Below, piece by piece: positions 696 through 31,016 of a stretch of 64,000 nucleotides of DNA (its first letter is position 1; each line of letters starts with the position of its first letter). The position numbers and the translations under genes are program-made. Source of the DNA: Solirubrobacterales bacterium (lineage in GTDB: Bacteria; Actinomycetota; Thermoleophilia; Solirubrobacterales; Solirubrobacteraceae). The notes under the pieces are model-generated. The model was given only the letters and a program-made list of their open reading frames with translations. It was not told the DNA's origin and did not search any database. The stretch spans positions 1 to 64,000 of the forward strand of contig JAPLCJ010000004.1 of NCBI GenBank assembly GCA_026392255.1, in the 5' to 3' direction.

Positions 696-1790
696 CTAGC
701 TGACTGGCTTGAGGCCAGCTGCAGCGCATCCAGCGGCAAGGGCATCGAGCCCGAATGCCTTCACCGGCCCGAGGGAGCCCGTGTTGGCAGGCCCGACCGT
801 TGCCAGGGTCCTGCCTGCGAAGGCAAGGAACTCCGCCGTCAGGTCATAGCCATTGGGGCCGTTGAGTTCTACGAAGGAAACTTGGGTGCCATCAGCGGCT
901 AAGGCCTCAGCAACGGCTACCGATCCTGACTTCGCGCGTTCGGCTGTGCTTGGGCCACCAGTTGACCCCGGGAGGGCCTTCTTCAGGCCCGCTCCGAGAA
1001 GAGCCTTTGCGCCAGGAATCTTGGTGATGCCTGCAACAGCGGCGGCTCCATAGCGAGCTGGAGCGGTCCTAGGTCCGAACCAGCCCAGATATGCGTTCAC
1101 ATCGGTGATGGCATCGGAGATCTGAGGAATCGCGAAGTGTTCTGACGAGCCAATTGAAAGCCCTACGCGGGGACCGCCTTGAGTGGCGAAGGTGTGTTCA
1201 GCCTTGGCACCGCGGACGGTTCTGATCGCTCCATCGCGATACTCGAAGCCAGGCGTCAATAAGGCGCCCGCCAGGGAGGCGAGGGTGCCGCCGCTCGCAC
1301 CGAAGCCGCCTTGGAAGAAGTAACCAACGTTGACGCTTACTGCATCAGCGCCGGCTAGGTCAAGTGCCATGCCTGCGGCAAGGTTGCCCGGTACGTAGTC
1401 ATAGCCAAACGCTGTAAGAGCAGCGATACCGGCGTTCTTCGCTTGCGCGTCGGCCTCAAACACTCTACGGATCCAAGATGGCTCACCGGTTGAGTCCACG
1501 TAGTGGGCGCCGGCATCTAGAGCAGCTTGGAAAGCAGGCTCACCTAGGCGAGCAAATGGCCCAACGGTGGTAACGATCACATCACCCTTGTCGACGAGCG
1601 AGCGGACAGAGGCAGGGTCTGTCACATCGGCCACGACTGTGTCCAGGCCGCCAAGTTCGTCAGCGAGAGCTTGGACGCGCTCTGGGCTACGGGCGGCAAG
1701 GATTGGTGTCGACCCGGCCTTCACCATTGCGCGCGCTGTGAGCTCGCCTGTGTAACCAGTTGCTCCAAAGAGAATTATCCGCGCGGCCAT
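696..1790 (-). CDS. Saccharopine dehydrogenase-like NAD(P)-binding oxidoreductase
   Basis: A 364-residue protein starting with a Rossmann fold (ARIILFGATGYTG near residues 3-15), followed by SPERVQALADELGG, TTVGPFARLGEPAF and AHYVDSTGEPSWI, the pattern of the saccharopine-dehydrogenase-like/trans-acting enoyl reductase family. The substrate is unknown; relatives include reductases acting on lipids in mycobacteria. I choose ATG 1790 over a TTG nine bases further upstream because a TAGTCT -10 box sits 8 bases upstream of 1790 and would overlap the TTG start. The gene stands alone, convergent with hppA and divergent from the permease operon. Confidence 0.8.
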   Translation of the reverse strand: MAARIILFGATGYTGELTARAMVKAGSTPILAARSPERVQALADELGGLDTVVADVTDPASVRSLVDKGDVIVTTVGPFARLGEPAFQAALDAGAHYVDSTGEPSWIRRVFEADAQAKNAGIAALTAFGYDYVPGNLAAGMALDLAGADAVSVNVGYFFQGGFGASGGTLASLAGALLTPGFEYRDGAIRTVRGAKAEHTFATQGGPRVGLSIGSSEHFAIPQISDAITDVNAYLGWFGPRTAPARYGAAAVAGITKIPGAKALLGAGLKKALPGSTGGPSTAERAKSGSVAVAEALAADGTQVSFVELNGPNGYDLTAEFLAFAGRTLATVGPANTGSLGPVKAFGLDALAAGCAAAGLKPVS

Positions 1791-1798
1791 CGAGGGCA

Positions 1799-1804
1799 AG
1801 ACTA
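1799..1804 (-). promoter_or_regulatory. -10 box for the saccharopine dehydrogenase-like gene
   Basis: TAGTCT on the minus strand, 8 bases before ATG 1790, with no Shine-Dalgarno between. It fits a leaderless start and decides the start codon. Confidence 0.6.
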
Positions 1805-1850
1805 GAGAGATCGTCTGGCGGATGCACGGGTGGGCTGTCGGCTGGACGCG

Positions 1851-1856
1851 TAGGAT
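1851..1856 (+). promoter_or_regulatory. -10 box for the first APC permease
   Basis: TAGGAT located 8 bases upstream of ATG 1865, no convincing ribosome-binding site; it supports 1865 as a leaderless start instead of an upstream in-frame codon that would overlap the divergent gene. Confidence 0.55.
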
Positions 1857-1864
1857 CAGGGCCT

Positions 1865-3865
1865 ATGGCTCGCAGGCTTCTACCCGGACTCGAACGCGTA
1901 CTTGGTGTCAACGCTCTCTTTGCGACTGCGTACGGCAATGTCGGGTCCTCTATCTATTACGCACTTGGTCTAGTTGCCAGCTACGCCCTCGGCCTCACAC
2001 CGATCGTCTTTCTGATCAGTGGCGTGCTCTTCTATCTGACGGCGGCTACCTATTCAGAAGCCACTGCGATGTACCCGGAGGCCGGAGGGTCGTCGAGCCC
2101 GATCGTCTTTCTGATCAGTGGCGTGCTCTTCTATCTGACGGCGGCTACCTATTCAGAAGCCACTGCGATGTACCCGGAGGCCGGAGGGTCGTCGAGCTTC
2201 GCACGGCACGCCTTCAATGAGTTCTGGTCCTTCTTTGCAGCCTGGGGCCAGATGCTCAACTACACGATCACCATCGCGATCAGCGCATTCTTCGTTCCCC
2301 ACTACATCGGGGGATTGTTTTGGGAGCCACTGAGGCACTCACCTGGGGACATCATCGCCGCCATCGGTGTGATCGTTCTTCTTAGTGTGGTCAATGTGGT
2401 TGGTGTCAAGGAGGCCGCTGGGCTGAACATCTTCCTTGCAGTGATCGACTTCGCGACGCAGCTGCTACTCGTCCTGGTCGGTCTCTTCCTGGTGTTTTCA
2501 CCGGAGACCCTCGCGAACAACGTCCAGTGGGGCGTTGCTCCAACGTGGACCAACTTTGTGATCGCGATCCCCGTGGGAATGATCGCCTACACCGGCATCG
2601 AGACGATCTCCAACATGGCGGAGGAGGCCAAGTCCCCGGGCAAGACAGTGCCAAAGGCAATCAACCGAGTTGTCATTGCTGTGTTTGCCATCTACGCGGT
2701 ACTGCCTGCTGTAGCACTCTCGGCACTGCCTGTGACCTGCGTTGACGGGAAGTGCCAAACGCAGCTCGGTATATCTAGCGACAAGGGTGGGTATGCCGGG
2801 GATCCCGTGCTCGGGGTGGTCAAGCAACTTTCCCTCGGACCGCTCCAGAGTGCTACGGAGATTTACGTGGGAATCCTGGCGGCCACGATTCTCTTCATCG
2901 CCACCAACGCTGGCATCATCGGGGTGTCGCGCTTGGTCTACTCAATGGGACTCCACCGACAGGTGCCCGACAGTATGCGTCAGCTACATCCCAAGTACCG
3001 CACTCCTTGGCTAGGCATCCTGCTCTTCGGGGCTATCGCCTGCGTGGCGGTAATACCAGGCAAAGCAGAGTTTCTTGGCAATCTCTACGCGTTTGGAGCA
3101 ATGTTGTCGTTCACGATTGCTCACGCAGCCGTTATCCGGCTGCGAATCACTCAGCCAGACGCCAAACGCCCTTACAGCGGTCCTGGGCGCCTCCGGTTCC
3201 GCGGAATGGATATTCCGGTGTTTGCGTCCGTTGGCGGCGCAGGGACTCTTTTTGCATGGGTCACCGTGACCTTTCTCCATCTGGATGTTGCGATCACGGG
3301 TATTGGTTGGCTACTCACGGGAGTTCTGGTCTACGCGGTGTACCGAAAGACTCAGGGCTTGGATTTGACGACGACTGTCACTGCTGATGTGTCCAAACCG
3401 GTCCTTCCTCACGAGGCTGAATATCAATCAGTTCTGGTGGCGGTTGAGGGCGGTGTGTTTGATCCCGAGCTGATCTCCACCGCGAAGGGTCTCGCGGGCG
3501 AGGCTCAGGGAGCAATCCATGTCATCGTGACCATTCCGGTGCCTGCGGAGAGTCCAATCGATGCCGAGATGCCCGTACAGGAGGCGCGAGCCAAGGCAAT
3601 CATTGAGGAAGCCCGTGTAGCTGGTGGGCGCAGAGTTACGGGGAGTGTCGTCAACGTCAGGTCAGGACAGGCCGGCCGGGTGATCGTCGATTTAGCGAAA
3701 GAGATCGGGTCTAGGGCCATCGTGTTGCCAGCCAGAGCGAAACCCGGTGGTGGGCCTTTCAGTAGAACCCTTGACACCGTTCTCGCTGAACGGCCTTGCC
3801 GCGTAATCGTGCAGTCGATACCCGACGCTTCGGGTAACCGAGGGTTCATCGGGGGACGGGCATGA
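1865..3865 (+). CDS. APC-family permease with C-terminal universal stress domain (KimA-like), carrying an internal 33-residue duplication
   Basis: A 666-residue membrane transporter of the amino acid-polyamine-cation superfamily. The N-terminal helix 1 region (ATAYGNVGSSIYYALG), the YPEAGGSSSFARHAFNEF segment after helix 2 and about a dozen hydrophobic helices are visible. From about residue 515 it carries a soluble UspA-like domain (YQSVLVAVEGG ... RAIVLPARAKPGGG ... ERPCRVIVQS). APC proteins with this tail include the potassium importer KimA, so K+ uptake is possible, but the residue aligned by eye with a KimA potassium-binding Asp is Asn here, so an amino acid substrate remains open. The segment from PIVFLISG to EAGGSSS occurs twice in tandem; the paralogue downstream has one copy. 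First gene of a tightly packed operon (ATGA overlap with the next). Confidence 0.85.
   Translation: MARRLLPGLERVLGVNALFATAYGNVGSSIYYALGLVASYALGLTPIVFLISGVLFYLTAATYSEATAMYPEAGGSSSPIVFLISGVLFYLTAATYSEATAMYPEAGGSSSFARHAFNEFWSFFAAWGQMLNYTITIAISAFFVPHYIGGLFWEPLRHSPGDIIAAIGVIVLLSVVNVVGVKEAAGLNIFLAVIDFATQLLLVLVGLFLVFSPETLANNVQWGVAPTWTNFVIAIPVGMIAYTGIETISNMAEEAKSPGKTVPKAINRVVIAVFAIYAVLPAVALSALPVTCVDGKCQTQLGISSDKGGYAGDPVLGVVKQLSLGPLQSATEIYVGILAATILFIATNAGIIGVSRLVYSMGLHRQVPDSMRQLHPKYRTPWLGILLFGAIACVAVIPGKAEFLGNLYAFGAMLSFTIAHAAVIRLRITQPDAKRPYSGPGRLRFRGMDIPVFASVGGAGTLFAWVTVTFLHLDVAITGIGWLLTGVLVYAVYRKTQGLDLTTTVTADVSKPVLPHEAEYQSVLVAVEGGVFDPELISTAKGLAGEAQGAIHVIVTIPVPAESPIDAEMPVQEARAKAIIEEARVAGGRRVTGSVVNVRSGQAGRVIVDLAKEIGSRAIVLPARAKPGGGPFSRTLDTVLAERPCRVIVQSIPDASGNRGFIGGRA
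2000..2197 (+). repeat. Exact 99-bp tandem duplication
   Basis: Bases 2000-2098 and 2099-2197 are identical over all 99 positions. The unit is in frame (33 codons) and covers transmembrane helix 2 and the following loop of the permease, so the encoded helix is doubled. There is no divergence between copies, so it is either a very recent event or an assembly artefact. Confidence 0.97.
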
Positions 3866-4050
3866 GTCAGCCGGGCGTCCACCGCTCAACTATCCGGTTT
3901 CTTGCCGCTGCGATGGTTGTCGTTGGCATCGCACTAGTTGTTCGCGCCATCTCTGCTGGAGGTGGAGTGCTCTCTATCGGAGTCCTCATGGGTCTTCTCT
4001 TCGTAGCAGCAGGAGTCGGGCGCTATTGGCTGACTGTGAGGGGCGAATGA
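3862..4050 (+). CDS. Small two-helix membrane protein between the two APC permeases
   Basis: A 62-residue protein with two hydrophobic segments (about residues 12-30 and 34-52) and a charged C-terminal end (YWLTVRGE). It overlaps the upstream permease by ATGA at 3862 and the downstream permease by ATGA at 4047, so the three genes are translationally coupled. I do not recognise a family. The position between two paralogous transporters suggests a small accessory subunit, but nothing in the sequence proves it. Confidence 0.7.
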   Translation: MSQPGVHRSTIRFLAAAMVVVGIALVVRAISAGGGVLSIGVLMGLLFVAAGVGRYWLTVRGE

Positions 4051-6005
4051 CGGCGAGAGATGAAGTCCAGGCACAACGGGTTGGCCCACTTGGGCTCTTC
4101 GCCCTCGTCTATACAACTAGTGCGGCCGGGCTCTATTTTGCGCTGGGTCTGATTGCTGACAAGGCCTTGGGGCTGACTCCACTGGTCTTCCTCGCAGGCG
4201 GTTTATTCCTTGGTCTCGCGGCCATGAGTTACACGGAGGGAGCGCTTGGGCATCCCGAGCCCGGCGGCTCTAGCTCACTTGCGCGGCATGCTTTCAATGA
4301 ACTGGTGTCCTTCGCTGCTGGGTGGGTAGTTGTGCTGGATTTCTTGGTCGTGATGGCACTGGCCGCCACCACAGCCGCCGGCTATCTGGGAACCATCTGG
4401 CCGCCACTAGGACACGGCTGGGGCAGGGCACTGACGGCAGGCTTGGTCGTCCTTTACGCCGTGGTTGCCAATGTCCGAGGGGCTAATCCGTCAGCAACGC
4501 GGAATCGCATTGTCATCGCGGTCGCGGATATTGGGATTCAGGGAATCGTGCTGGTCGTTGGGCTTGTTTTCTTGTTCGGCAAGAGCGGGCTTATTACCGC
4601 AGGGCTTGACATCGGCGTGTCACCTACCTGGCCACACGTCATTTACGCGTTGACCTTAGTAACGGTGGCCTTCACTGGCCTCGAAGCCGCCGCAAGCCTT
4701 GCCCCTGAGTTCCGAATGGACGGGTCAGGGGTCAAGCGGATGCTGTTGGGAGGCGTCGGCGTCATCGTGGTTTTGCATGTTGGTATTGCGTGCGTTGCGC
4801 TGGCGGCCGTGCCGGTAAGGGGCGGGGCCACCGACCTCGGTTCCCAATGGCTAAACGCGCCACTGGTTGGAGTGGCGCAAGGACTCGACTCAGGCACGTT
4901 CGGAGACTTTCTCGCCAAGGTTGTTGCAATCAGCGGGTTCATTGGCCTCACCGCAGCTGTTCGTTCGGCCATGCTCGGGCTTTCGCGCTTGTCGTACTCC
5001 TTGGCGCGCCACAGGCAAATCCCACGAGTGGTTGCCCGTGTCAGCGCACGGTATGGCACGCCTTGGCTGATCATCATTCTTTCGGGGCTAGCCGCCACAG
5101 GACTAGCTGCATCGGGCGACATTCGCATGCTCGCTGGGATCTACGCCTTCGGAGCCATGCTGGCCATCACGATTGCGCATCTTTCTGTACTTAAGCTCCG
5201 CTGGACTGGTGGTATGTCCACGGGGAGTTGGCGGATGCCGCTGTCGCTGGGGACCGAGAGCAGGTCGGTTCCGATTCCTGCTCTTGTCGGAGCAGTCGCC
5301 TCCGCAGCCGCGTTTGTTGCCGTACTGATTCTGCATCCTGCTGCGCGGATTGTGGGTTCGGCATGGCTGATCGGAGGCATCGTCCTCTATGTGGCTTACC
5401 GCCTGCTGACTGGGAACAGCATTGTCGGTGAGGTTGAGGTGTCAGAGCGAGCCCTCACGTATTCGGATGAGGCGGCGTCCTACGGGTCCATTCTTGTCCC
5501 CATTCTGGGCACTGATCTTGACGACGACATCGTCCAGACGGCCGGCCGCCTCGCGGGGAGCCGACATGATGACCTTCAGGAAACTGGAGCGGTCATTGAG
5601 GCGATCTGGTTCCACGAGATCCCACTGGCACTTCCACTCGATGCCTCGATTAGTCGTGAGCAGACTGAGTTAGCGTTGAGCTCTCTCAGGCACGCAAAGG
5701 CAGTGGGAGAGGAGTATCAAGGCGTGACGGTTTCCACTGCTCAGGTGAGAATCCGCAAGCTCGGTGATGGCATCGTCCGTGAAGCGAAGCGGCGTGGGGT
5801 TGATGTGATCATTCTCTCTGCCGAGGAGCCATCCAGGGCGGCAAGGACGGCACCCGCGGGTATTGGTCGTCAGGTTGGACTTGGTGAAATGACGAGGTTT
5901 GTTCTGCGGAAGGCGGCGTGCAGAGTGCTCGTGACCGTGCCGTCTACAAACGTTGACGGGACTCGTAGCCGCGACGACGATGATGAAGCCGGCGAAGCGG
6001 AGTAG
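4047..6005 (+). CDS. APC-family permease with C-terminal universal stress domain, paralogue of the preceding permease
   Basis: 652 residues with the same architecture as the gene upstream: about twelve hydrophobic helices, a GHPEPGGSSSLARHAFNE segment matching the paralogue, and a UspA-like cytoplasmic tail (ASYGSILVPILGTDLDDD ... VDVIILSAEEP ... KAACRVLVTVPS). It has a single copy of the helix 2 segment that is doubled in its neighbour. ATG 4047 is chosen because it gives an ATGA overlap and a family-like N terminus; an ATG seven codons upstream only adds residues overlapping the small gene. The tail of such proteins binds nucleotides or c-di-AMP in some relatives. Substrate unknown; potassium is favoured by the adjacent RCK genes. 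Confidence 0.82.
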   Translation: MTARDEVQAQRVGPLGLFALVYTTSAAGLYFALGLIADKALGLTPLVFLAGGLFLGLAAMSYTEGALGHPEPGGSSSLARHAFNELVSFAAGWVVVLDFLVVMALAATTAAGYLGTIWPPLGHGWGRALTAGLVVLYAVVANVRGANPSATRNRIVIAVADIGIQGIVLVVGLVFLFGKSGLITAGLDIGVSPTWPHVIYALTLVTVAFTGLEAAASLAPEFRMDGSGVKRMLLGGVGVIVVLHVGIACVALAAVPVRGGATDLGSQWLNAPLVGVAQGLDSGTFGDFLAKVVAISGFIGLTAAVRSAMLGLSRLSYSLARHRQIPRVVARVSARYGTPWLIIILSGLAATGLAASGDIRMLAGIYAFGAMLAITIAHLSVLKLRWTGGMSTGSWRMPLSLGTESRSVPIPALVGAVASAAAFVAVLILHPAARIVGSAWLIGGIVLYVAYRLLTGNSIVGEVEVSERALTYSDEAASYGSILVPILGTDLDDDIVQTAGRLAGSRHDDLQETGAVIEAIWFHEIPLALPLDASISREQTELALSSLRHAKAVGEEYQGVTVSTAQVRIRKLGDGIVREAKRRGVDVIILSAEEPSRAARTAPAGIGRQVGLGEMTRFVLRKAACRVLVTVPSTNVDGTRSRDDDDEAGEAE

Positions 6006-16022: not shown

Positions 16023-16666
16023 GCGGCATTTCGGTCGCCTCAATAACGGTTGGCCCTGTGGCGGAGAACTGCCATGTCCTCTTTCGTGAGGGCTCGACGG
16101 ACGCTGTAGTAGTCGACCCCGGCGATCAGATTGACCTCCTAACTGAGTTTCTGCTCGGTTTGGGAGTTAGCTGCAAGGCGATCATCCTCACGCACACCCA
16201 CTTCGATCACGTCGGCGCGGTTGCTCCACTCGCTGCTGCGTCGGGAGCCCAGGTGTGGTGCCCGGAAATTGAGCGAGAGGTGCTTGCCAACATCATGGAC
16301 TTCGTACCGTGGCCGGGGTTTGGTCCGTTTGAGAGCTACGAGGCTGATCATCTACTTTCGGGTGGGGAGACGCTCCAGCTGGCGGGTCTTGACATTGAGG
16401 TTGTTCACACGCCTGGCCACAGCCCCGGGCATATGACCTTCGTTCTGGACGAGGGCGAGATCTTGGTTTCGGGGGACGTGCTGTTCCAGGGCTCGATCGG
16501 ACGGACTGATCTCCCTGGAGGCGATGGTCCTACTCTCCTGCGCTCTATAGAGGGGCTGTTGATTGCTTATCCCGATAGTGCATCTGTTTATCCTGGCCAC
16601 GGGGGCGTCACCACGCTCGGGGCTGAGCGGGCAACGAATCCGTTTCTCGGAGGGCTGACGGCATGA
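16019..16666 (+). CDS. Metallo-beta-lactamase-fold hydrolase (glyoxalase II-like)
   Basis: 215 residues of the MBL fold: metal-binding THTHFDHVG (about 60-68), HTPGHSPGH, a later conserved Asp in LVSGDVLF and YPGHGGVTT near the end. This pattern is that of small hydroxyacylglutathione-hydrolase-like enzymes, thought to hydrolyse thioesters such as those formed in methylglyoxal detoxification. The start is GTG 16019, overlapping the upstream stop by four bases; the end overlaps hisS by four bases. Enzyme class is sure, substrate is not. Confidence 0.85.
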   Translation: MSGISVASITVGPVAENCHVLFREGSTDAVVVDPGDQIDLLTEFLLGLGVSCKAIILTHTHFDHVGAVAPLAAASGAQVWCPEIEREVLANIMDFVPWPGFGPFESYEADHLLSGGETLQLAGLDIEVVHTPGHSPGHMTFVLDEGEILVSGDVLFQGSIGRTDLPGGDGPTLLRSIEGLLIAYPDSASVYPGHGGVTTLGAERATNPFLGGLTA

Positions 16667-17884
16667 GTGATCTTCAGGCACCGAAGGGCACCTTTGATGT
16701 GTTGCCGGCAAGCGCGAACGATTACTCGGCGGTGGAGGCAGCAGCATCGCGGGTGCTGGGTCGAGCTGGATACCTTCGCATCCAGACCCCAATCTTTGAA
16801 TCAACTGAGCTTTTTGCTCGTGGAGTTGGCGAGTCCACAGACATCGTTGCGAAAGAGATGTATTCCTTCGATGACGGAGGTGGTCGGTCAGTAACCCTAA
16901 GGCCTGAAGGCACGGCTTCTATCTGCCGGTCCTACATAGAGAACGGGATGCACAAGCTTCCTCAGCCCATTCGTGTCTGGTACTCGGGTCCGTTCTTTCG
17001 GCACGAAGCCCCCCAAGCCGGCAGATTTAGGCAGTTCCACCAGATCGGCGCGGAGGCGCTTGGCAGCGATCGACCTGAGATTGACGCTGAGATGGTTGGA
17101 GCTCTCGGTCGGGGACCTCAGGCTGAGACTGGGATCGCTCGGTTCTACCGAGACACGACTCAGGTACCGCGATCTCTTGCAAACCCACCTAAGGGCTAAT
17201 CAGGACAAGCTGTCAGCCGAAGTGAAGGGTCGGATTGACATCAATCCACTCAGGGCTTTCGATAGCGCTGATCCGTCGACACAAGAGGTAATGGCTACCG
17301 CACCCGTCTTGCTGGATTCCCTCGACCCCCAAGATGCCGAGCACTTTCAGGTTGTCCGTGATCTGCTCGATGCGGCCGGTGTGGCGTATGAGGTTGACCC
17401 GCGCTTGGTGAGGGGCCTGGACTACTACGGTCGGACGGTCTTTGAATTCAGCTCCGACCGCTTGGGTGCACAGAGCGGGGTAGGCGGCGGTGGCCGCTAC
17501 GACGGTCTCATGGAGCTACTGGGAGGTCAGGCGACGCCCGGTATCGGCTGGGCGGCCGGCGTGGAACGGATACTGCTCGCGCGTGAGCCACAGGATGAGG
17601 CTCAGCCTAAGTGTGATCTGCTCGTCGTGGCTCTCGAATCAGACCGGCTTACCGACGCGTTCGTTCTGGCCAAGCTTGCTCGCGGTCAAGGGATTGAGGC
17701 GCGGCTTGAGGTGACTGGAAGATCAGTCAAGGCCGCTCTCAAGCATGCCAACAAGATTGGTGCGCTAGCCGTCGCACTATTGGACTCTGCTGGTGATCAG
17801 CTCAAGAACATGGACACCGGGGAGCAGGTAGTTCAGGAATCCGCCACGACGCTTCTCGAGTCGCTTCGCGGCATGATGGTCTAG
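16663..17884 (+). pseudogene. hisS: Histidyl-tRNA synthetase with a frame break
   Basis: The first ~144 codons read as class II HisRS (GTFDVLPASANDY, LRPEGTASICRSYIE, FRHEAPQAGRFRQFHQIG, EIDAEM). The frame then breaks within about 17092-17110; the remainder continues one base later in the next frame (LSVGDLRLRLGSLGST ... LVRGLDYYGRTVFEF ... GVGGGGRYDGLM ... anticodon-binding domain) to the stop at 17884. Compared with the family as I remember it, about 5-8 residues are also missing at the junction, so a deletion of 2 modulo 3 bases fits better than a single inserted base. hisS is normally essential, so a sequence or assembly error is as likely as a true mutation. The stop overlaps aspS by one base. 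Confidence 0.85.
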
Positions 17885-19683
17885 TGCCCGAACTCAAACC
17901 CAACTCCTTCCGTACACGCTGGGCTGGGGATCTGCGTGAATCTGACGTCGATTCCGGGGAGCAAGTGACGGTTTCTGGCTGGGTGCATCGCCGCCGCGAC
18001 CACGGCGGACTTGTGTTTGTTGATCTGCGTGATCGAACTGGCCTGCTCCAGCTTGTCTTCCATCCAGAGGAGGGCTCAGAGGCGCACGATGTTGCTCACG
18101 CACTCCGATCCGAAGATGTCATCACCGCCACTGGGGACTTAGTCCGGCGCGGTGAGGGCCAAGTCAATGCTGACGCGCCCACAGGTGCGGTTGAGCTCTC
18201 TGTAAACAGCCTGGTGCTGATCTCCTCAGCCGAGACACCTCCGTTCCCTGTCGATGAGGACGGTCATGTTGATGAGTTGATTCGCCTAAAGAACCGCGCA
18301 GTTGACATTCGCCGTCCCGCTCTGTCGCGCGCTCTGCGGCTGCGCCATGACGTCACCCGCGCAATCCGTCAAGTTCTCGACACTGCTGGTTTCACCGATG
18401 TTGAAACACCCGTGCTGACGCGCTCCACCCCGGAGGGTGCTCGTGACTTCCTCGTTCCGGCGAGGACCTCGCCAGGCGAGTTTTTTGCCCTTCCACAGTC
18501 ACCGCAGCTCTTTAAGCAGCTGCTCATGGTTGGCGGGATCGAGCGGTACTACCAAATCGCCCGCTGCTTCCGTGATGAGGACCTCCGCGCTGATAGGCAG
18601 CCTGAGTTCACACAGATGGATTTGGAGATGTCGTTTGTGGAGGAGGACGATGTTCTTGAGATCACCGAGCGGGTCCTTACTAGTGTCTTCGAGGTAGCTG
18701 GTCTTGAGGTCACCTCAGCCCCATGGCCGAGGATGACTTACGCGGAGTCAATGTCCAGATTTGGCAATGACCGTCCCGATACTCGGTTTGGGCTGGAGCT
18801 CTCTGACGTAGGGGACGCGCTGGGGGCCACTGAGTTCAAAGTCTTCAGAGGCGCACTTGACTCGGGTGGTGTGGTTTGGGGCCTGAATGCTGGCAATGCT
18901 GAAGTCCCAAGATCCGAGCTTGACGCTCTCACTGACCTCGCTAAGCGGCACGGTGCCGGTGGCCTTGTTTGGGCCTTCGTGGAGGCAGATGGCGGATGGC
19001 GGTCGCCCGTTGGCAAATTCCTCAGCGACGACGAGCGAGCGGGAGTGATCGGCTCACTTGGTGCGGTTGAGGGTGACCTGATGCTCCTCGTTGCTGATAC
19101 TCAGGGGACAGCCGCGGCTGCGTTGAGTGCGGTGCGGCTTGATCTAGGTCATCGCCGGGGGCTCGTGCCGGAGAGTGTTCATCACGCACTTTGGGTTACC
19201 GAGTTCCCAATGTTTGAGCCTGACTCCGCCTCGGGTGGCTGGACGGCACTGCATCACCCATTCACTGCGCCATCTGGGGACCTTGGAGATCCGCGGGGCT
19301 TGAAGTCACGGGCGTACGACATCATCTTGGACGGGGTTGAAATTGGCGGTGGATCCATTCGTATTCATGACCCTGAAACCCAGGCGAAGGTTCTAGAGAT
19401 CATCGGCATGTCCCCAGCGGACTCGGAGGAGCGGTTTGGCTTCCTGCTGAGGGCTTTGCGTCAAGGCGCACCACCGCATGGCGGTATCGCGCTCGGCGTT
19501 GACCGACTGGTAGCTCTCTGTGCCGGACACGATTCGATCCGGGATGTCATCGCGTTCCCCAAGAGCGCTTCCTCCCAGGATCCACTCACGGGTGCGCCAG
19601 GAGAGGTTGATCCCGCGCAGCTCAAGGAAATTGGACTCCAGCGCTTGCCGGTTGATCGGGTCCAGCGAACACCCGAGGACTGA
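17884..19683 (+). CDS. aspS: Aspartyl-tRNA synthetase
   Basis: 599 residues, the length of bacterial-type AspRS. N-terminal OB-fold anticodon-binding domain (VSGWVHRRRDHGGLVFVD), class II motif 2 (RCFRDEDLRADRQPEFTQ), the bacterial GAD insertion (about 300-415) and motif 3 (GGIALGVDRLVALCAG) are all present. It charges tRNA-Asp; whether it is discriminating or also charges tRNA-Asn cannot be read from the sequence alone. GTG start at 17884 overlaps the last base of hisS. It lies in the translation block hisS-aspS-mnmA. Confidence 0.95.
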   Translation: MPELKPNSFRTRWAGDLRESDVDSGEQVTVSGWVHRRRDHGGLVFVDLRDRTGLLQLVFHPEEGSEAHDVAHALRSEDVITATGDLVRRGEGQVNADAPTGAVELSVNSLVLISSAETPPFPVDEDGHVDELIRLKNRAVDIRRPALSRALRLRHDVTRAIRQVLDTAGFTDVETPVLTRSTPEGARDFLVPARTSPGEFFALPQSPQLFKQLLMVGGIERYYQIARCFRDEDLRADRQPEFTQMDLEMSFVEEDDVLEITERVLTSVFEVAGLEVTSAPWPRMTYAESMSRFGNDRPDTRFGLELSDVGDALGATEFKVFRGALDSGGVVWGLNAGNAEVPRSELDALTDLAKRHGAGGLVWAFVEADGGWRSPVGKFLSDDERAGVIGSLGAVEGDLMLLVADTQGTAAAALSAVRLDLGHRRGLVPESVHHALWVTEFPMFEPDSASGGWTALHHPFTAPSGDLGDPRGLKSRAYDIILDGVEIGGGSIRIHDPETQAKVLEIIGMSPADSEERFGFLLRALRQGAPPHGGIALGVDRLVALCAGHDSIRDVIAFPKSASSQDPLTGAPGEVDPAQLKEIGLQRLPVDRVQRTPED

Positions 19684-19688
19684 GCAGG

Positions 19689-21134
19689 GTGGATGGTCTT
19701 GCCTTTGAACACCACCTTCTGACGCCAGAAGGTCTCGGAGCGGTCCCAGAAGCAAAGCATCAGGGTTCCGCTGGTGGTGTCGCCTGCGGTGACTTGATTC
19801 AGTTCCGTGTTGACCTCGCCAGTGGAAATGTCTCCGTCGGGTTCGATGCGGAAGGCTGCGGGGCTTTGACTGCTTGCGGCTCTGCGATTGTGTCGCGGGC
19901 CAGCGGACTGAGTCTGCTGGACGCAGCCAAGGTAGGGCTCGTGGAGGTGGACGAGGAGCTCGGAGGTCTGTCGGCCTCCAAGGTTCACGCAAGCGAGTTG
20001 GCCGTGGATGCCTTCCACCGTGCGCTGGGCGCGGCCGCTAGAGATGCCGATCCGCTTCCGCAGTCTGACCGCAGACTGGTTGCGATGAGCGGGGGAGTCG
20101 ACAGCGCTGTTGCGGCTTGGTTGGCCTCCGCTGAGGGGACTCGAGACGTAGCGGCCGTGACACTTGAGCTCTGGCGGGATGAGAAGTCGGACGCAGAGGC
20201 GTCTTGTTGCTCTCACATCGCTGTGAGGCGTGCCCGCGACATGGCTCACGGTCTGGGGCTGCCGCATCTGACACTCGACCTGCGGGAGGAGTTCCGAGCC
20301 GGGGTCGTCGATCCGTGGATAGACGGGTATCGCAACGGCGCTACTCCAAATCCGTGCGTGCGGTGCAACGGCAATGTTCGAATTGCCCCGATGGTTGACC
20401 TTGCAGACAGCATTGGTGCGAAGGCGCTTGTTACAGGGCACTACGCCCGCTTTGCCGAAGAGGGATTGGATGGGGCTGGTCCGCTGCTGCGTGAAGGGGT
20501 GGATCCGAACAAGGATCAGTCCTACGCGCTGGCCCGCGTTCCTAAAGATGTGCTTGCCCGGATGGAGTTCCCACTTGGTGCCATGCATAAGCCTGAGGTT
20601 CGCGACATCGCCCGCGAGGCTGGCCTGGAGGCCGCTGACACTGCTGACAGCCAAGACCTCTGCTTTTTAGCTGGAGTTGGCCGGGAGGCATTTCTGGCCC
20701 GTCACGGTGGAGTTGTTGAAAATGAGGGTCCGGTTGTCGACCAAGATGGGCGCCGAGTTGGCAGTCACCGAGGTATTCACAACCACACCGTCGGCCAGCG
20801 GAAAGGCTTAGGAATTGGGGGTGGCGAGCCGCTCTATGTGCTTCGCACTGATTCGAAGACGAACACTGTCACTGTGGCCCCGAAGGCTGCTATCTCCACT
20901 CTGCGTGTCGAGCTTGTCGACATTGATTTACGCGCTGAGCCCAGCCGGGTTACTTCGGCGCGACTTCGCCATCACGGAGCTATTGGGGACGCGTCCCTGG
21001 CAGTGGCTGAGGATGGGACGGCCATACTGACGTTCGCTAAGCCGGCCGTGGCCGTCGCGCCGGGGCAAATGGCTTGCCTGCTGGAGGGGGACCTGATTGT
21101 CGGCTGCGCCACGATCGCGGGTGCCGGGGCTTAG
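19689..21134 (+). CDS. mnmA: Fusion of an IscU/NifU-like scaffold domain with tRNA 2-thiouridylase MnmA
   Basis: 481 residues. Residues ~130-481 are MnmA, which puts sulfur on U34 of tRNAs for Lys, Glu and Gln: P-loop AMSGGVDSAVAAW (132), actinobacterial CCS motif (173-174), catalytic Cys226 in NPCVRCN, GHYARF and second catalytic Cys325 in SQDLCFLAG. The first ~115 residues resemble an IscU scaffold: GGVACGD (Cys33), EGCGALTACGSA (Cys57, Cys63) and KVHASELAVDA, which corresponds to the IscU KxHCSxLA motif with the third ligand Cys changed to Ala101. The GTG start follows AGG five bases after the aspS stop. A built-in sulfur or cluster acceptor for the thiolase is the natural inference. Confidence 0.85.
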   Translation: MDGLAFEHHLLTPEGLGAVPEAKHQGSAGGVACGDLIQFRVDLASGNVSVGFDAEGCGALTACGSAIVSRASGLSLLDAAKVGLVEVDEELGGLSASKVHASELAVDAFHRALGAAARDADPLPQSDRRLVAMSGGVDSAVAAWLASAEGTRDVAAVTLELWRDEKSDAEASCCSHIAVRRARDMAHGLGLPHLTLDLREEFRAGVVDPWIDGYRNGATPNPCVRCNGNVRIAPMVDLADSIGAKALVTGHYARFAEEGLDGAGPLLREGVDPNKDQSYALARVPKDVLARMEFPLGAMHKPEVRDIAREAGLEAADTADSQDLCFLAGVGREAFLARHGGVVENEGPVVDQDGRRVGSHRGIHNHTVGQRKGLGIGGGEPLYVLRTDSKTNTVTVAPKAAISTLRVELVDIDLRAEPSRVTSARLRHHGAIGDASLAVAEDGTAILTFAKPAVAVAPGQMACLLEGDLIVGCATIAGAGA

Positions 21135-21146: not shown

Positions 21147-23771
21147 GTGGCTACTACCGACGAGATCCGAAGCACCTTCATTGACCATTTCGAGCGGGAG
21201 GGACACCTACTGCTTGGGTCAGCGCCGCTCGTGCCCGCAACACATGACGCGAGCGTGCTTCTCACGACCGCAGGGATGCATCCCCTTAAGCCCTACTTTT
21301 TGGGTCAGGACACACCGCCTAACTCTGTTCTCACGTCATGTCAGAAGTGCTTCAGGACCACAGATATTGAGAATGTCGGAAGCACCGCTAGGCACCTCAC
21401 ATTCTTCGAGATGCTCGGTAATTTCTCAATCGGCGGTTACTTCAAGGAGGGGGCAATAGCTCACGCTTGGAAGGTGGCAACCGAAGGTTTCGGCTTTGCT
21501 CCAGATCAGATTTGGATCACAGTCTTTGCCGGCGACCCAGAGCTGGGCTTGGGGCCGGACCAGGAGGCGATTGATGCTTGGGTTGCCGTCGGCGTTGATC
21601 CAGCGCGCATCACGCAGCTTGGCCGTAAGGACAATTTCTGGCAAGCCGGCCCAACCGGGCCGTGCGGGCCGTGTTCGGAGCTCTATTTTGATCGGGGACC
21701 GGAATTTGGTCCCGACAGCGAGCGACCCGGCGATGATGGCGAACGGCACCTTGAGTTCTGGAACTTGGTCTTTATGGAGTACGAGCAGTCGGAGAAGGGC
21801 GAGCTGACGCCGCTGCCGTCAAAGAACATCGACACCGGCATGGGTCTAAACCGCATGGCGGCCATCCTGCAAGGTGTCGGTTCCGTGTTTGACACGGATC
21901 AGTTTGTTCCACTGATGGCCCTAGGCCGGGAACTTGCCACGGATGAGGTGAGCGAGCGTTCTCTGAGGATCCTTGCGGACCACTCGCGAGCAATGTGCTT
22001 TTTGATCGCCGATGGGGTCGTTCCATCCAACGAGGAACGGGGTTACATTCTTCGTCGTCTGATGCGGCGGGCCATTCTGCACGGACGCAAGCTTGGAATG
22101 GAGACCGGTTTCCTAGTGACTTATGCAGAGGCCGTTGAGAAGATCATGGCTGAGAATTATCCAGAGCTGATTGAGCAGCGCGATGTGATCAGGACATGGG
22201 TAGCCGCTGAGGAAGAGGGCTTTGGCCGCACGCTCGTTGCTGGCTCGGAGTCCCTTGACGAGCTGATCGCGGCAGCGCGGACAGCAGGCTTGGAAGGAAT
22301 CTCAGCAGCGGACGCGTTCCTTCTTCACGACACGCACGGTTTTCCGATTGACCTCACGCTCGAGCTCGTTGCCGAGCACGGCCTCGGGGTTGATGAAGCT
22401 GGGTTCGAACTTCTGATGGATGAGCAGAGGGAGCGGGCCCGAGGCGGGTCCGCCACCGCGACTCCTAACGGCGAAGTTTCGGCCTTGGATTTGGCCGCTA
22501 CCCAGCTCGCCAATGTAGGTAGCCCGGCTAACTTCGTTGGTTACAGCGATATAGAGGTCGCAACTACCGTCACCGCAACGGAGCCCATTGAGGACGGTGC
22601 TTTCCTTCTTAAGCTCGCGGAGTCTCCGTTCTACGCCGCTGGAGGCGGTCAGGTGGGGGATGTTGGCCTAGTGATCACAGATAATGGCCAGAATGGAGAT
22701 GTCGCCTCGGTCTTGCGAGTAGGGGCTGACCAAGTGATTCTCGTGACAGGGCTGACAGCTGCGCCGGCGGCTGGGAGCGCGGTAACTGCCGTTGTCGATC
22801 GGGGCAAACGCTTCGCTACCCAGGCCAACCACACGGCCACGCACCTGTTGCACGCTGCTTTGAGGGAACGCCTTGGGAGTCATGTTCGGCAAGCAGGTTC
22901 CTATGTCGGGCCCGACAAGTTGCGCTTTGACTTCACCCATGGCGAAGGTCTCACGCCGGCAGACATTGGGGCGATTGAGGATCAAGTCAATGCTCAGATC
23001 CTCGCCAATGACAATGTGAGCTCTTCCCAGACGACGCTTGATGCAGCAAAGGCGAAGGGTGCGATGGCTCTGTTCGGCGAAAAGTACGGCGATGTTGTGC
23101 GCCTAGTAGAGATTGGCGATGGGGGTTTTTCCCGTGAGCTCTGCGGTGGTACGCACGTCCGTTCAACAGCAGAAATTGGCTGCTTCAAGATCACCTCGGA
23201 AGGTTCAAGCGCTGCGAACGTGAGGAGGGTGGAGGCCGTGACAGGACCGGTAGCCATTGATCTTCTGCGCGTGCATGATCAGACCCTCTCCGAGATTGCA
23301 AGTCAGCTGAAGACGACACCGGACGCTGCAGCCAGCTCCGTCAGGAAGCGGCTTGAGCGCCTTAAGGAACTTGAGAAGGTCGCTGAATCGGGGGCTGCGC
23401 TCGACCCTGCAGGTATCGCGGGGGAGGCCATTGAGGTCGGGGGACTTATGTGTGTCTTTGCTGAGGTTTCTGATGTTGGAGGGAAGGCTCTTCCTGACCT
23501 AGCTGACCGAGTGTTGGGGCTCCTTGGAGAGGGCTCAGTTGTTGTTCTCGCTGCCAGAGGCGTCGACAAGGTCGATCTAGTTGCAGCCGTTGGACCCGGC
23601 GCGATTGCCCAAGGTGTGAAGGCAGGCGAGATAGTCGCCAAGGCTGCTGCAGCTGTCGGCGGTGGAGGCGGTGGGAAGGATTCAATGGCTCGCGCTGGCG
23701 GCAAGGACCCCGAGCTCACTCCAGACGCTCTTCTCGCTGCGCGGAATGTGGTTGAGGCCGCTACGCGATGA
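21147..23771 (+). CDS. alaS: Alanyl-tRNA synthetase
   Basis: 874 residues, full length. Class II catalytic domain (STFIDHFEREGH, TTAGMHPLKPYFLG, CGPCSELYFDRG), the editing domain with zinc ligands HTATHLLH and RELCGGTHV, and a C-terminal DHHA1/C-Ala domain ending in the glycine-rich AVGGGGGGKDSMARAGGK. It charges tRNA-Ala and clears mischarged serine and glycine. GTG start just after the mnmA stop; the 3' end overlaps ruvX by ATGA. Confidence 0.97.
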   Translation: MATTDEIRSTFIDHFEREGHLLLGSAPLVPATHDASVLLTTAGMHPLKPYFLGQDTPPNSVLTSCQKCFRTTDIENVGSTARHLTFFEMLGNFSIGGYFKEGAIAHAWKVATEGFGFAPDQIWITVFAGDPELGLGPDQEAIDAWVAVGVDPARITQLGRKDNFWQAGPTGPCGPCSELYFDRGPEFGPDSERPGDDGERHLEFWNLVFMEYEQSEKGELTPLPSKNIDTGMGLNRMAAILQGVGSVFDTDQFVPLMALGRELATDEVSERSLRILADHSRAMCFLIADGVVPSNEERGYILRRLMRRAILHGRKLGMETGFLVTYAEAVEKIMAENYPELIEQRDVIRTWVAAEEEGFGRTLVAGSESLDELIAAARTAGLEGISAADAFLLHDTHGFPIDLTLELVAEHGLGVDEAGFELLMDEQRERARGGSATATPNGEVSALDLAATQLANVGSPANFVGYSDIEVATTVTATEPIEDGAFLLKLAESPFYAAGGGQVGDVGLVITDNGQNGDVASVLRVGADQVILVTGLTAAPAAGSAVTAVVDRGKRFATQANHTATHLLHAALRERLGSHVRQAGSYVGPDKLRFDFTHGEGLTPADIGAIEDQVNAQILANDNVSSSQTTLDAAKAKGAMALFGEKYGDVVRLVEIGDGGFSRELCGGTHVRSTAEIGCFKITSEGSSAANVRRVEAVTGPVAIDLLRVHDQTLSEIASQLKTTPDAAASSVRKRLERLKELEKVAESGAALDPAGIAGEAIEVGGLMCVFAEVSDVGGKALPDLADRVLGLLGEGSVVVLAARGVDKVDLVAAVGPGAIAQGVKAGEIVAKAAAAVGGGGGGKDSMARAGGKDPELTPDALLAARNVVEAATR

Positions 23772-24163
23772 GCCGGGTGGTCGCCCTGGATCACGGCTCG
23801 GCCCGCTGCGGGGTGGCCAGCTGTGACCCGTCCGGCACGATTGTCACCCCGCTTGAAGCAATTGCCAAGCCGGATACTCCAATTGGTCTGGAGGCGATTG
23901 GGGAGGTGATTCGGGAACGTGAAGCGGACCTCGTGGTCGTCGGTCTGCCACTCGGTATGGACGGCGCTACCACTGACCAGACCAACAAGGTCAAGCACTT
24001 CGCTGCACAACTGAGGAAGGTCATAGCACCTGTCGAGGTTGAGGTGTTCGACGAGCGGTTGACCACCAAGGCGGCACAGGAGATAGGAGGGAGTGCTAGT
24101 GAGGACTCCCGTGCAGCTGCGGTCTTGTTGGAGAGATGGCTGGCAGTAGCGGAGCAACGGTGA
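23768..24163 (+). CDS. ruvX: Putative Holliday junction resolvase YqgF/RuvX
   Basis: 131 residues with the RNase H-like pattern of the family: VVALDHGSARCGVA at the N terminus (first acidic residue), DLVVVGLPLGMDG, FDERLTTKAA (second acidic residue) and a C-terminal D-S-x-A-A-A helix (EDSRAAAVLLERWL). Proposed to process rRNA ends or resolve junctions. It sits between alaS and mltG, a widespread arrangement, overlapping both by four bases. Confidence 0.9.
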   Translation: MSRVVALDHGSARCGVASCDPSGTIVTPLEAIAKPDTPIGLEAIGEVIREREADLVVVGLPLGMDGATTDQTNKVKHFAAQLRKVIAPVEVEVFDERLTTKAAQEIGGSASEDSRAAAVLLERWLAVAEQR

Positions 24164-28317: not shown

Positions 28318-29487
28318 ATGAACTTCAGGTTGATCACAGCTGGCGAGAGCCACGGGCCCGGTTTGACCTGCATTGTTGAGGGTATTCCGGCAGGCCTCGA
28401 GCTCACTCAAGACGCCATAAACGGAGATCTGGCCCGACGGCAGCTGGGTCACGGACGCGGCGGTCGGATGAAGATTGAGACGGACAAGGCTGATGTGACC
28501 GCCGGAGTTCGACACGGATTGACGTTAGGTGGCCCGATCTGCCTGAGCGTGACCAATGCTGACTTTGCTAACTGGGAGGATCGTATGAATCCTTGGCCAG
28601 TTGAACCTGTGATTGATGAAGTCCACCTTCCTCGGCCCGGTCATGCGGATCTTCCTGGTGCGTGGAAGTACGACTTCACCGACATTCGAAATGTCCTTGA
28701 GCGGGCCAGCGCCCGCGAGACAGCTGCCCGGGTCGCTGGTGGAGCCGTTGCCAAGGCCATGTTGGCGGCGGTTGGGGTTCAGGTTAGATCTCACGTGATC
28801 CAAATCGGCAGCGTGATGGGACCAGAGGTTGATAACCCAGCCCTCTCAGATTTTGATGCAGTTGACGCGTCACCTGTTCGGTGTCTCGACCCCGACGCCA
28901 GCGTCGCCATGGTTGAGGAGATCAACGTTCTGCGTAAGAAGAATGAGTCGATCGGGGGAACATTTGAGGTTCGCGTTTGGGGTCTAGTCCCCGGTCTCGG
29001 CTCGCATGTCTCGTGGGAAGATCGCCTCGACGGCCGGCTGGCTCAGGCTGTCATGTCTGTACAGGCCATCAAGGGTGTTGGCATTGGTGATGGCTTCGAC
29101 CTTGCTGGGCGCCCTGGCAGCGAGGCTCACGACGAGATCTTCCACACCGAGGAACGTGGCTGGTTCCGCGAAACGAATAGAGCCGGTGGGCTGGAGGGCG
29201 GCATGACTAACGGAGAGGCACTCGTTGTCCGTGCGGCTATGAAGCCGCTACCTACTCTCACAAAGCCACTGCGATCAGTTGATATTTCCACTCTTGAGCC
29301 CGCGGCAGCACTGAGGGAGCGGACCGATTCGTGCACGGTTCCTGCGGCTGGAGTTGTTGCCGAGGCAATGGTTGCTTTCGTCTTGGCAGAGGCATACTCA
29401 GACAAGTTCGGCGGGGACAGCATGACTGACCTCGCTGCCGCCGTTGCGTCTTACCGCGAGCGGATCGGCTGGAAGCAGCAGCCGTGA
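28318..29487 (+). CDS. aroC: Chorismate synthase
   Basis: 389 residues beginning MNFRLITAGESHGPGL, with RRQLGHGRGGRMKIE, PGHADLPGAWKY, RASARETAARVAGGA and GMTNGEALVVRAAMKP, the family's conserved flavin and substrate segments. Converts EPSP to chorismate with reduced FMN. First gene of an operon with the aroK-aroB fusion (four-base overlap), aroQ and pepQ. Confidence 0.97.
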   Translation: MNFRLITAGESHGPGLTCIVEGIPAGLELTQDAINGDLARRQLGHGRGGRMKIETDKADVTAGVRHGLTLGGPICLSVTNADFANWEDRMNPWPVEPVIDEVHLPRPGHADLPGAWKYDFTDIRNVLERASARETAARVAGGAVAKAMLAAVGVQVRSHVIQIGSVMGPEVDNPALSDFDAVDASPVRCLDPDASVAMVEEINVLRKKNESIGGTFEVRVWGLVPGLGSHVSWEDRLDGRLAQAVMSVQAIKGVGIGDGFDLAGRPGSEAHDEIFHTEERGWFRETNRAGGLEGGMTNGEALVVRAAMKPLPTLTKPLRSVDISTLEPAAALRERTDSCTVPAAGVVAEAMVAFVLAEAYSDKFGGDSMTDLAAAVASYRERIGWKQQP

Positions 29488-31016
29488 AAGGCGTCGCCGG
29501 GAGGGCCCTCGTGCTCGTCGGCTTCATGGGGTCCGGTAAGAGCACGGCCGCGCGATCGATTGCGCCCGATGCGCTAGATACTGATGTGCTGATTGAAGCC
29601 CAGCTCGGTGCGTCAGTGGAGGCCATCTTTCGCCGCGACGGGGAGGCATCCTTTCGCGAGGCAGAGGAGCGGATCACACTCGCGGGCCTCGACCAAGCTG
29701 CTTCGGGTGCAGGCGGCGGGCTTATTTCGCTTGGTGGAGGCGCGCTGGGCTCACAGAGAGTCCGCGAGGCGCTTAAGCATCACACGGTGGTTTTCTTGGA
29801 CGCCGATGCCGACACTCTCTGGAAGCGGGTTAGTCGATCTAAGCGGCCTTTAGCTGCGGATAGAGATGCGTTTGATGCACTCTTTATTGAACGGGAGGAG
29901 GCTTATCTCGCGGCTGCTGACGCAGTTGTTCCGGCTCTACGGCGAGACACGCTCGGTTCGGCACTGCCGGATATTCACCGACTTGCCGCGCTGGGGAAGG
30001 GACCCAAGCTGCTCTGGGCTGAATCGGACTCAGGCAACTACCCGGTGTGGATTGGCTCAGGTATTGCGGGACGTGTGCCGCTTCCGGTCGGCCGGCGCTG
30101 GGCAGTCATCAGCGACGGAAACGTTGCAGGTCTGCATGGCGACCTTCTAGACCCGGTTATGGCAAGGCTCGTCATTGAACCTGGAGAGCAACACAAGACA
30201 CTTACTACCTGCGAGCGTCTGTGGAGCGAGCTGGCCGATGCTGGTGTCACGCGAGATGATGGAATCGTGGCGCTTGGCGGTGGAGTTGTCGGTGACGTTG
30301 CCGGATTTGTGGCTTCCAGTTTCCAACGCGGCATCCCAATCGTTCAGATTCCGACGACTCTTGTTGCTCAGGTGGACTCGGCCTATGGCGGCAAAACTGG
30401 AGTGGACCTCCCTTCGGCCAAGAACTACGTGGGTTCCTATCACCAGCCGGCGGCTGTCATCGCTGACGTTGATTTTCTAGAAACGCTGCCTGCCGTCGAG
30501 GTTGCCGCGGGCATGGCTGAGGTGGTTAAGACCGGGTTGATTGCCGGAGGGTTGCTGTGGGAGAGAATCGCTGCGGGCAACGCGGTGGACGATGCCATGG
30601 TGCTGGCCTGCGCTCGAACGAAACTTGCTGTGGTGCGTGAGGACGAGCGTGACGGCGGCAGGCGTCAAGTTCTCAACTTTGGTCACACCATCGGCCACGC
30701 CATTGAGACAGCGACTGACTACCGCCAGTTCCGCCATGGGGAGGCAGTGTCCATCGGCTTGATGGCCGCCCTACGGCTCTCTGGACACGCGGATCTTCAT
30801 GTCCAGACCGGTCAGTTGCTCGCGGCTGCGGGACTGCCATTGAGCGCGCCCGGCGTGGATGCTGAGCTCGTGATCAACGCCCTGCAATCAGACAAGAAAC
30901 GAAAGGGAGACGGAACGGTCCCGTTCGTCCTCTGCGAAGCTCCCGGCATGGTCAGCCACGGGCATGTGATTCCCGCTTCAGCGGTTCGAGCCGCGGTTGA
31001 GGAGGTCTGCTCATGA
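29484..31016 (+). CDS. aroKB: Bifunctional shikimate kinase / 3-dehydroquinate synthase
   Basis: 510 residues, two enzymes in one chain. Residues ~1-170: shikimate kinase with P-loop GFMGSGKST, DTDVLIE, FREAEERITL and LGGGALGS. Residues ~180-510: 3-dehydroquinate synthase with EPGEQHKT, ALGGGVVGDVAGF, QIPTTLVAQVDSAYGGKTGV, KNYVGSYHQP, and zinc ligands in NFGHTIGHAIE and RHGEAVSIG. Both active sites look intact. The fusion joins steps 2 and 5 of the shikimate pathway. GTG start overlaps aroC by four bases, and the end overlaps aroQ by four. Confidence 0.95.
   Translation: MKGVAGRALVLVGFMGSGKSTAARSIAPDALDTDVLIEAQLGASVEAIFRRDGEASFREAEERITLAGLDQAASGAGGGLISLGGGALGSQRVREALKHHTVVFLDADADTLWKRVSRSKRPLAADRDAFDALFIEREEAYLAAADAVVPALRRDTLGSALPDIHRLAALGKGPKLLWAESDSGNYPVWIGSGIAGRVPLPVGRRWAVISDGNVAGLHGDLLDPVMARLVIEPGEQHKTLTTCERLWSELADAGVTRDDGIVALGGGVVGDVAGFVASSFQRGIPIVQIPTTLVAQVDSAYGGKTGVDLPSAKNYVGSYHQPAAVIADVDFLETLPAVEVAAGMAEVVKTGLIAGGLLWERIAAGNAVDDAMVLACARTKLAVVREDERDGGRRQVLNFGHTIGHAIETATDYRQFRHGEAVSIGLMAALRLSGHADLHVQTGQLLAAAGLPLSAPGVDAELVINALQSDKKRKGDGTVPFVLCEAPGMVSHGHVIPASAVRAAVEEVCS

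Follow-up and report, generated by a model that had tools for sequence, protein, structure and literature searches.

In the structure of the E. coli IscS-IscU complex, the cysteines of IscU that probably accept sulfur from the desulfurase first are Cys37 and next Cys63, and Cys106 is buried; Asp39 destabilises a cluster carried on IscU (PMC2854127). For human ISCU2 it is described that C138, the equivalent of Cys106, can receive the persulfide directly; the known ligands of [2Fe-2S]-IscU are three cysteines and one histidine, and zinc binding stabilises IscU folds (PMC8199681). Concerning the thiolation of tRNA, TusA occupies another site on IscS than IscU does (PMC2854127). The signature CC-CxxC-C characterises the C-type of the tRNA thiolase MnmA (PMC11784392), and the C-type enzyme of Thermus thermophilus is, according to Shigi (2020) as cited in PMC8584467 and PMC11784392, oxygen-sensitive and dependent on a [4Fe-4S] cluster. 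Three points are disputed (PMC11784392): the role of a cluster in the E. coli enzyme, the way in which MnmA obtains its sulfur, and whether the reaction proceeds through a [4Fe-4S] cluster or a persulfide.

In the window, i.e., the whole stretch of 64,000 nucleotides analysed here, the open reading frame at 19689-21134 (+) encodes a single unbroken protein of 481 amino acids with a GTG start, in which a NifU_N/IscU domain is joined to a complete MnmA. The IscU-like N-terminal domain (residues 1-118; 19689..20042, +) is matched by Pfam NifU_N (PF01592) at residues 9-114 (E 4.2e-15 and 56.5 bits in the full protein, E 2.5e-16 and 60.4 bits for the domain by itself; cut-off 22), and a PDB sequence search of this domain against NifU/IscU gave a best E of 2e-14. 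The AlphaFold model of the fusion is confident along its whole length (pLDDT 94.1, pTM 0.92). Its N-terminal part finds as best Foldseek match in PDB the A. fulgidus IscU chain 4eb5_C (E 5e-10, prob 1.00; rmsd 1.3 Å over 110 columns), which in this entry is part of an IscS-IscU complex, and its C-terminal part matches the MnmA/TrmU structures 2hma and 2det. Between the two halves lies a variable linker (residues 119-127; 20043..20069, +), the mean pairwise identity among the fusions of family f1 being 32% for residues 117-127 versus 60% for the domain and 64% for MnmA.

The MnmA half (residues 128-481 plus stop; 20070..21134, +) matches the HUP, PRC-barrel and C-terminal domains of MnmA in Pfam at residues 130-476 and exceeds the NCBIfam equivalog cut-off for MnmA over the same residues (NF001138; 323.8 bits vs 284). 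The PP-loop SGGVDS (residues 134-139; 20088..20105, +) is invariant at S134, G135, G136, D138 and S139 among 79 fusions. Concerning the cysteines of the signature, C173-C174 (20205..20210, +) are both Cys in 70 of 70 class fusions, and C223 and C226, the cysteines of the CxxC at the putative [4Fe-4S] site (C223-V-R-C226; 20355..20366, +), as well as the final C325 (20661..20663, +) are invariant in 79 sequences. By this signature the MnmA half belongs to the C-type. It thus shares with the T. thermophilus enzyme the PP-loop, the CC-CxxC-C set and the complete three-domain build above the equivalog cut-off, whereas it has in addition an IscU-like domain, roughly 118 residues long, at its N-terminus. 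Fused or nifU-adjacent MnmA was exclusively of C-type among the loci inspected, and a nifU or nifS neighbour was detected at 0 of 62 D-type MnmA loci, both comparisons being confounded by ancestry.

The first-pass annotation of this locus had recognised the IscU-like domain and the complete MnmA behind it, and both assignments are borne out by the profile and structure matches. It had also pointed to Cys33, Cys57 and Cys63 as the relevant cysteines and to Ala101 in place of the last IscU cysteine. All four residues are present, but only the first two cysteines are equivalents of site residues. C33-G34-D35 (19785..19793, +) align with Cys37 and Asp39 of IscU (C33 in 65 and D35 in 67 of 71 alignment rows) and C57 (19857..19859, +) with Cys63 (64 of 71 rows), C33, D35 and C57 being invariant in all 29 f1 fusions. 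The extra cysteine C63 (19875..19877, +) is lineage-specific: it is Cys in 8 of the 71 aligned rows, where Ala predominates, and was ruled out as a ligand, being unconserved and outside the ligand positions. At the position of the KxHC motif of IscU, K98-V-H100-A101 (19980..19991, +) retains the lysine and the histidine (H100 = His105; both in 29/29 f1 fusions), and Ala stands for Cys106 (A101 in 28/29; E. coli IscU numbering).

Compared with IscU of E. coli and A. fulgidus, the fused domain therefore has the fold and the equivalents of Cys37, Asp39, Cys63 and His105 in common, whereas it lacks Cys106, has LPPVK reduced to GGLSASK and is joined to a client enzyme. None of the family models is reached: the best NCBIfam model for the domain is NifU_clost (TIGR03419), with 55.2 bits against a cut-off of 187.9, followed by IscU (TIGR01999) with 40.6 bits against 192.4 and, within the common NifU_N superfamily, SufU (TIGR01994) with 18.6 bits against 92.5. 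The NifU encoded in operons with mnmA has the same fold as the fused domain and differs from it at the HCS cysteine, which in the fusion is Ala or Gly.

The whole protein was used as a query across 299 genomes of the same class, and the open fusion was found class-wide in more than 100 genomes of the families f1-f5 and f8-f11, covering many genera and including single-contig genomes such as G017; 70 class fusions were extracted and aligned (71 rows). Further fusions recur in other families of Actinomycetota (f23 and, more distant, f16, f55 and f73); the phylum was recognised from a sample around a Corynebacterium genome, which gave contig positions identical to those of the sample around the own genome. 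The neighbourhood is equally stable: aspS lies 5 bp upstream (17884..19683, +; Pfam) and also precedes the fusion in most class loci, and alaS (21147..23771, +; an ORF that served as query) and then ruvX (23768..24163, +; Pfam RuvX, E 5e-30) follow it across the class. That two neighbouring genes might have been merged by a sequence or assembly error could appeal to a frame break of hisS in the window, by which the assembly is imperfect, and to G359 and other genomes, in which nifU and mnmA are adjacent in frame with one stop. The identical open fusion in many independent assemblies, G017 among them, and elsewhere in the phylum refutes this reading, and its occurrence throughout the class excludes chance or sequencing error; as an explanation, an artefact is left with practically no weight. 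The two objections raised beforehand, a frame error and an N-terminal region of other than IscU fold, have thus both failed, and the search for the same architecture within the class, suggested at the same time, was successful.

Concerning the site as a whole, all five residues (Cys37, Asp39, Cys63, His105, Cys106) occur together in 0 of 92 fused domains, whereas 13 of 14 distinct stand-alone NifU/IscU proteins possess the complete set, only the nifU of G359, which abuts mnmA, departing from this (SufU and E. coli IscU were left out of this count, one duplicate locus was counted once, and L167/L168 plus near-identical copies were entered separately). To judge from these residues, the fused domain is an incomplete scaffold in every one of the 92 fusions examined, in agreement with the earlier view that the altered ligand set no longer makes a normal Fe-S scaffold. 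The loss followed two routes: in f1-f5 and f23 the Cys106 position is Ala or Gly and the His is kept, whereas in f8, f10 and f11 the Cys is kept and the His is missing, such that four of the five residues are left by each route. In the fusions of f9, f16 and f73 other members of the site are missing. The most advanced state is found in f7 (L126-L129, L151, L190, L191), where MnmA carries an eroded IscU-like N-terminal domain: the whole site is gone, the cysteines and the helix of the second Cys being absent, whereas a three-stranded beta-sheet and the C-terminal helix are still confidently predicted. MnmA of f7 looks intact, and these genomes are mostly without TusA or NifS.

Within f1, dN/dS of the IscU-like domain (0.03-0.29) is similar to that of MnmA (0.04-0.19), by which measure the domain is under purifying selection. 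These ratios and the invariance of the face residues in 29 sequences indicate that the old working face is constrained in this lineage.

The arrangement from which the fusion is derived is preserved in relatives. In f29, f51 and f67, nifS, nifU and mnmA are adjacent separate genes with nifU intact; in f23, the fused nifU-mnmA gene has nifS directly 5' of it, with the exception of G359, in which a stop codon separates abutting nifU and mnmA genes; and in f10 and f11 of the own class, nifS adjoins the fusion. A nifS beside the fusion is absent in f1-f5, f7, f8 and f9 as well as at the gene in the window. The source of the fused domain is nifU of this ancestral-looking nifS-nifU-mnmA operon, with the order nifU then mnmA unchanged and the two covalently joined. 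A sample of 149 phylum genomes around L047 (a Candidatus Aphodomonas record) showed no open fusion, but in about 20 of them nifU and mnmA share a frame that is interrupted by at least one stop, between the two or inside the match.

In a tree of MnmA the fusions are scattered over more than one group, and a common origin of those in the class and those in f23 is rejected (p-AU 0.00014 for uniting them to the exclusion of the split genes), the group having been chosen post hoc from the tree. The scatter and this rejection indicate that fusion, or fusion plus re-splitting, occurred repeatedly; going by the tree, the fusion probably arose at least two times. Distant NifU-MnmA-like fusions with different ligand losses are seen in L170-L177 (f16, f55, f34); those aligned show 27-31% identity, and in L171, L175 and L177 the N-terminal domain is scarcely recognisable.

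Concerning the sulfur supply of the host, its genome (1.66 Mb, 93% complete) contains one convincing cysteine desulfurase, SufS, within a SufS-SufU-Rieske-SufB cluster. The remaining class V aminotransferase matches are weaker than SufS; the strongest of them (C41) was rejected as a desulfurase, since its sequence on inspection resembles a serine-type aminotransferase and its gene is situated between ilvC-like and serA-like genes. The genome lacks canonical IscU and, by family search, NifS/IscS, and neither there nor in any of the 11 genomes sampled from the own order was a NifS-type desulfurase detected, the only matches being SufS-like (at most 34% identity). TusA, the absence of which had been anticipated, is indeed without a match over the cut-off in the own genome (best E 0.09) and was found in 0 of the 11 order genomes. 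As all 11 lack both TusA and a NifS-type desulfurase, incompleteness of the genome is not the cause. A stand-alone U-type protein had likewise been expected to be missing; this expectation was mistaken, since an intact SufU adjoins SufS. In f5 genomes with the fusion, a NifS-like gene is immediately followed by a TusA-like stretch (e.g., G007:C1:2209431-2210797), possibly a separate sulfur relay.

The fused domain is probably a built-in feeder of sulfur or metal. Tentatively, and with somewhat less than even confidence, the protein is best read as a C-type MnmA with an IscU-derived domain delivering sulfur in cis. Its IscU-like face would dock on a cysteine desulfurase, i.e., on NifS where this is still adjacent and on SufS, the only desulfurase detected, in the own lineage; C33 and C57 would accept the sulfur, which would pass intramolecularly to the CxxC-C site of MnmA, and MnmA, once fed in this way, would thiolate U34. 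The domain would thereby do the job of TusA-TusBCD-TusE in E. coli, with the proposed role of carrying desulfurase sulfur to MnmA in common, whereas the Tus proteins are of unrelated fold and act in trans. Loss at the Cys106 position would stop the build-up of clusters on the domain and spare the two cysteines that in the IscS-IscU structure come closest to the desulfurase. The retention of C33, C57, D35 and H100 with Cys106 dropped fits desulfurase docking and the passing of sulfur rather than cluster building, and the class-wide fusion, found again in f23 and f16/f55/f73, also speaks for sulfur handover. Counted in its favour are likewise the rejected common origin with f23, the nifS and nifU neighbourhoods of relatives, the incomplete site of all 92 fusions, the low dN/dS of the domain, the lack of TusA and of NifS-type desulfurases in the order, the association with C-type MnmA and the order in which Cys37 and Cys63 probably accept sulfur in IscS-IscU. 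Against it, the persulfide on C138 of ISCU2 suggests by analogy that loss of Cys106 may abolish sulfur acceptance; in f7 the site is lost although MnmA still looks intact and TusA and NifS are mostly missing as well, so that the site can be dispensed with; carrier proteins are not needed by other MnmAs (PMC8584467); and the partner in the own lineage could only be SufS, the usual partner of which, SufU, is only a distant relative of the domain.

Second in rank, and unlikely though deserving attention, is the loading of clusters: the IscU-like site would transiently hold an Fe-S cluster or iron and load or repair the [4Fe-4S] cluster of MnmA in cis, the clusters coming from SUF and none being built on the domain. 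The CxxC-C set of MnmA agrees with this, the Thermus enzyme being cited as [4Fe-4S]-dependent in PMC8584467 and PMC11784392, as does the outcome of both loss routes, which leave four of five residues, as would be seen if a metal site with four ligands were maintained; the retained equivalent of the cluster-destabilising Asp39 would suit a transfer site (PMC2854127). However, two Cys, one Asp and one His are a weak set compared with the three Cys and one His of [2Fe-2S]-IscU (PMC8199681), IscU-type scaffolds carry [2Fe-2S] whereas MnmA needs [4Fe-4S], and the f16 and f9 fusions are short of still more ligands. Rated below this, and rather doubtful, is a structural or allosteric module, which would bind zinc or nothing, stabilise the protein or aid binding of tRNA or a partner, and move no sulfur. 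Zinc does stabilise IscU folds (PMC8199681), the pTM of 0.92 suggests a fixed arrangement of the domains in the predicted model, and a structural role suffices in f7, where the face is gone and the sheet and C-terminal helix are still predicted. Invariance of C33, D35, C57, K98 and H100 in 29 divergent f1 sequences nevertheless goes beyond structural need, and that fusion recurred in nifS-nifU-mnmA surroundings is indicative of sulfur or cluster chemistry. That the domain might be a mere passenger, a harmless remnant of operon read-through or of the loss of a stop codon, is improbable: the site is decayed in all fused lineages and nearly eroded in f7, but purifying selection on it in f1 equals that on MnmA, and the domain is retained class-wide and originated repeatedly.

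The broader proposition, that a degenerate IscU without scaffold function was captured repeatedly as a cis feeder of sulfur or clusters for a [4Fe-4S]-dependent tRNA thiolase and replaces both the Tus relay and the dedicated NifS in the order, is possible and regarded with more reserve than sulfur handover itself. In that case IscU-type docking would serve tRNA thiolation, whereas thiolation in E. coli uses another surface of the desulfurase. As a single-chain system in bacteria without detected TusA or IscS, the fusion would allow sulfur delivery and cluster dependence to be separated by point mutations. It presents a scaffold apparently turned into a feeder devoted to a single client enzyme, the intermediate stages (separate genes, fusion, site loss, erosion) being preserved. 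No paper describing an IscU/NifU-MnmA fusion was found in open-licence PubMed Central. Both component families are known, and it is their fused, site-altered form, kept across a class, that was not encountered in this literature. NifU_N-MnmA architectures are probably present, unremarked, in domain databases.

Some further features of the window may be mentioned. The hisS gene (16663-17884) is split into two frames, 16663-17199 and 16973-17884; compared with the single open frame of the same-genus genome G142 (L207), about 23 bases are absent near 17097, which is either an assembly error or a genuine defect. A single AroK-AroB protein, encoded at 29484-31016, combines shikimate kinase with 3-dehydroquinate synthase, and at 1760-3865 and 4026-6005 two amino acid permeases are situated in tandem, each carrying a universal stress protein domain at its C-terminus.
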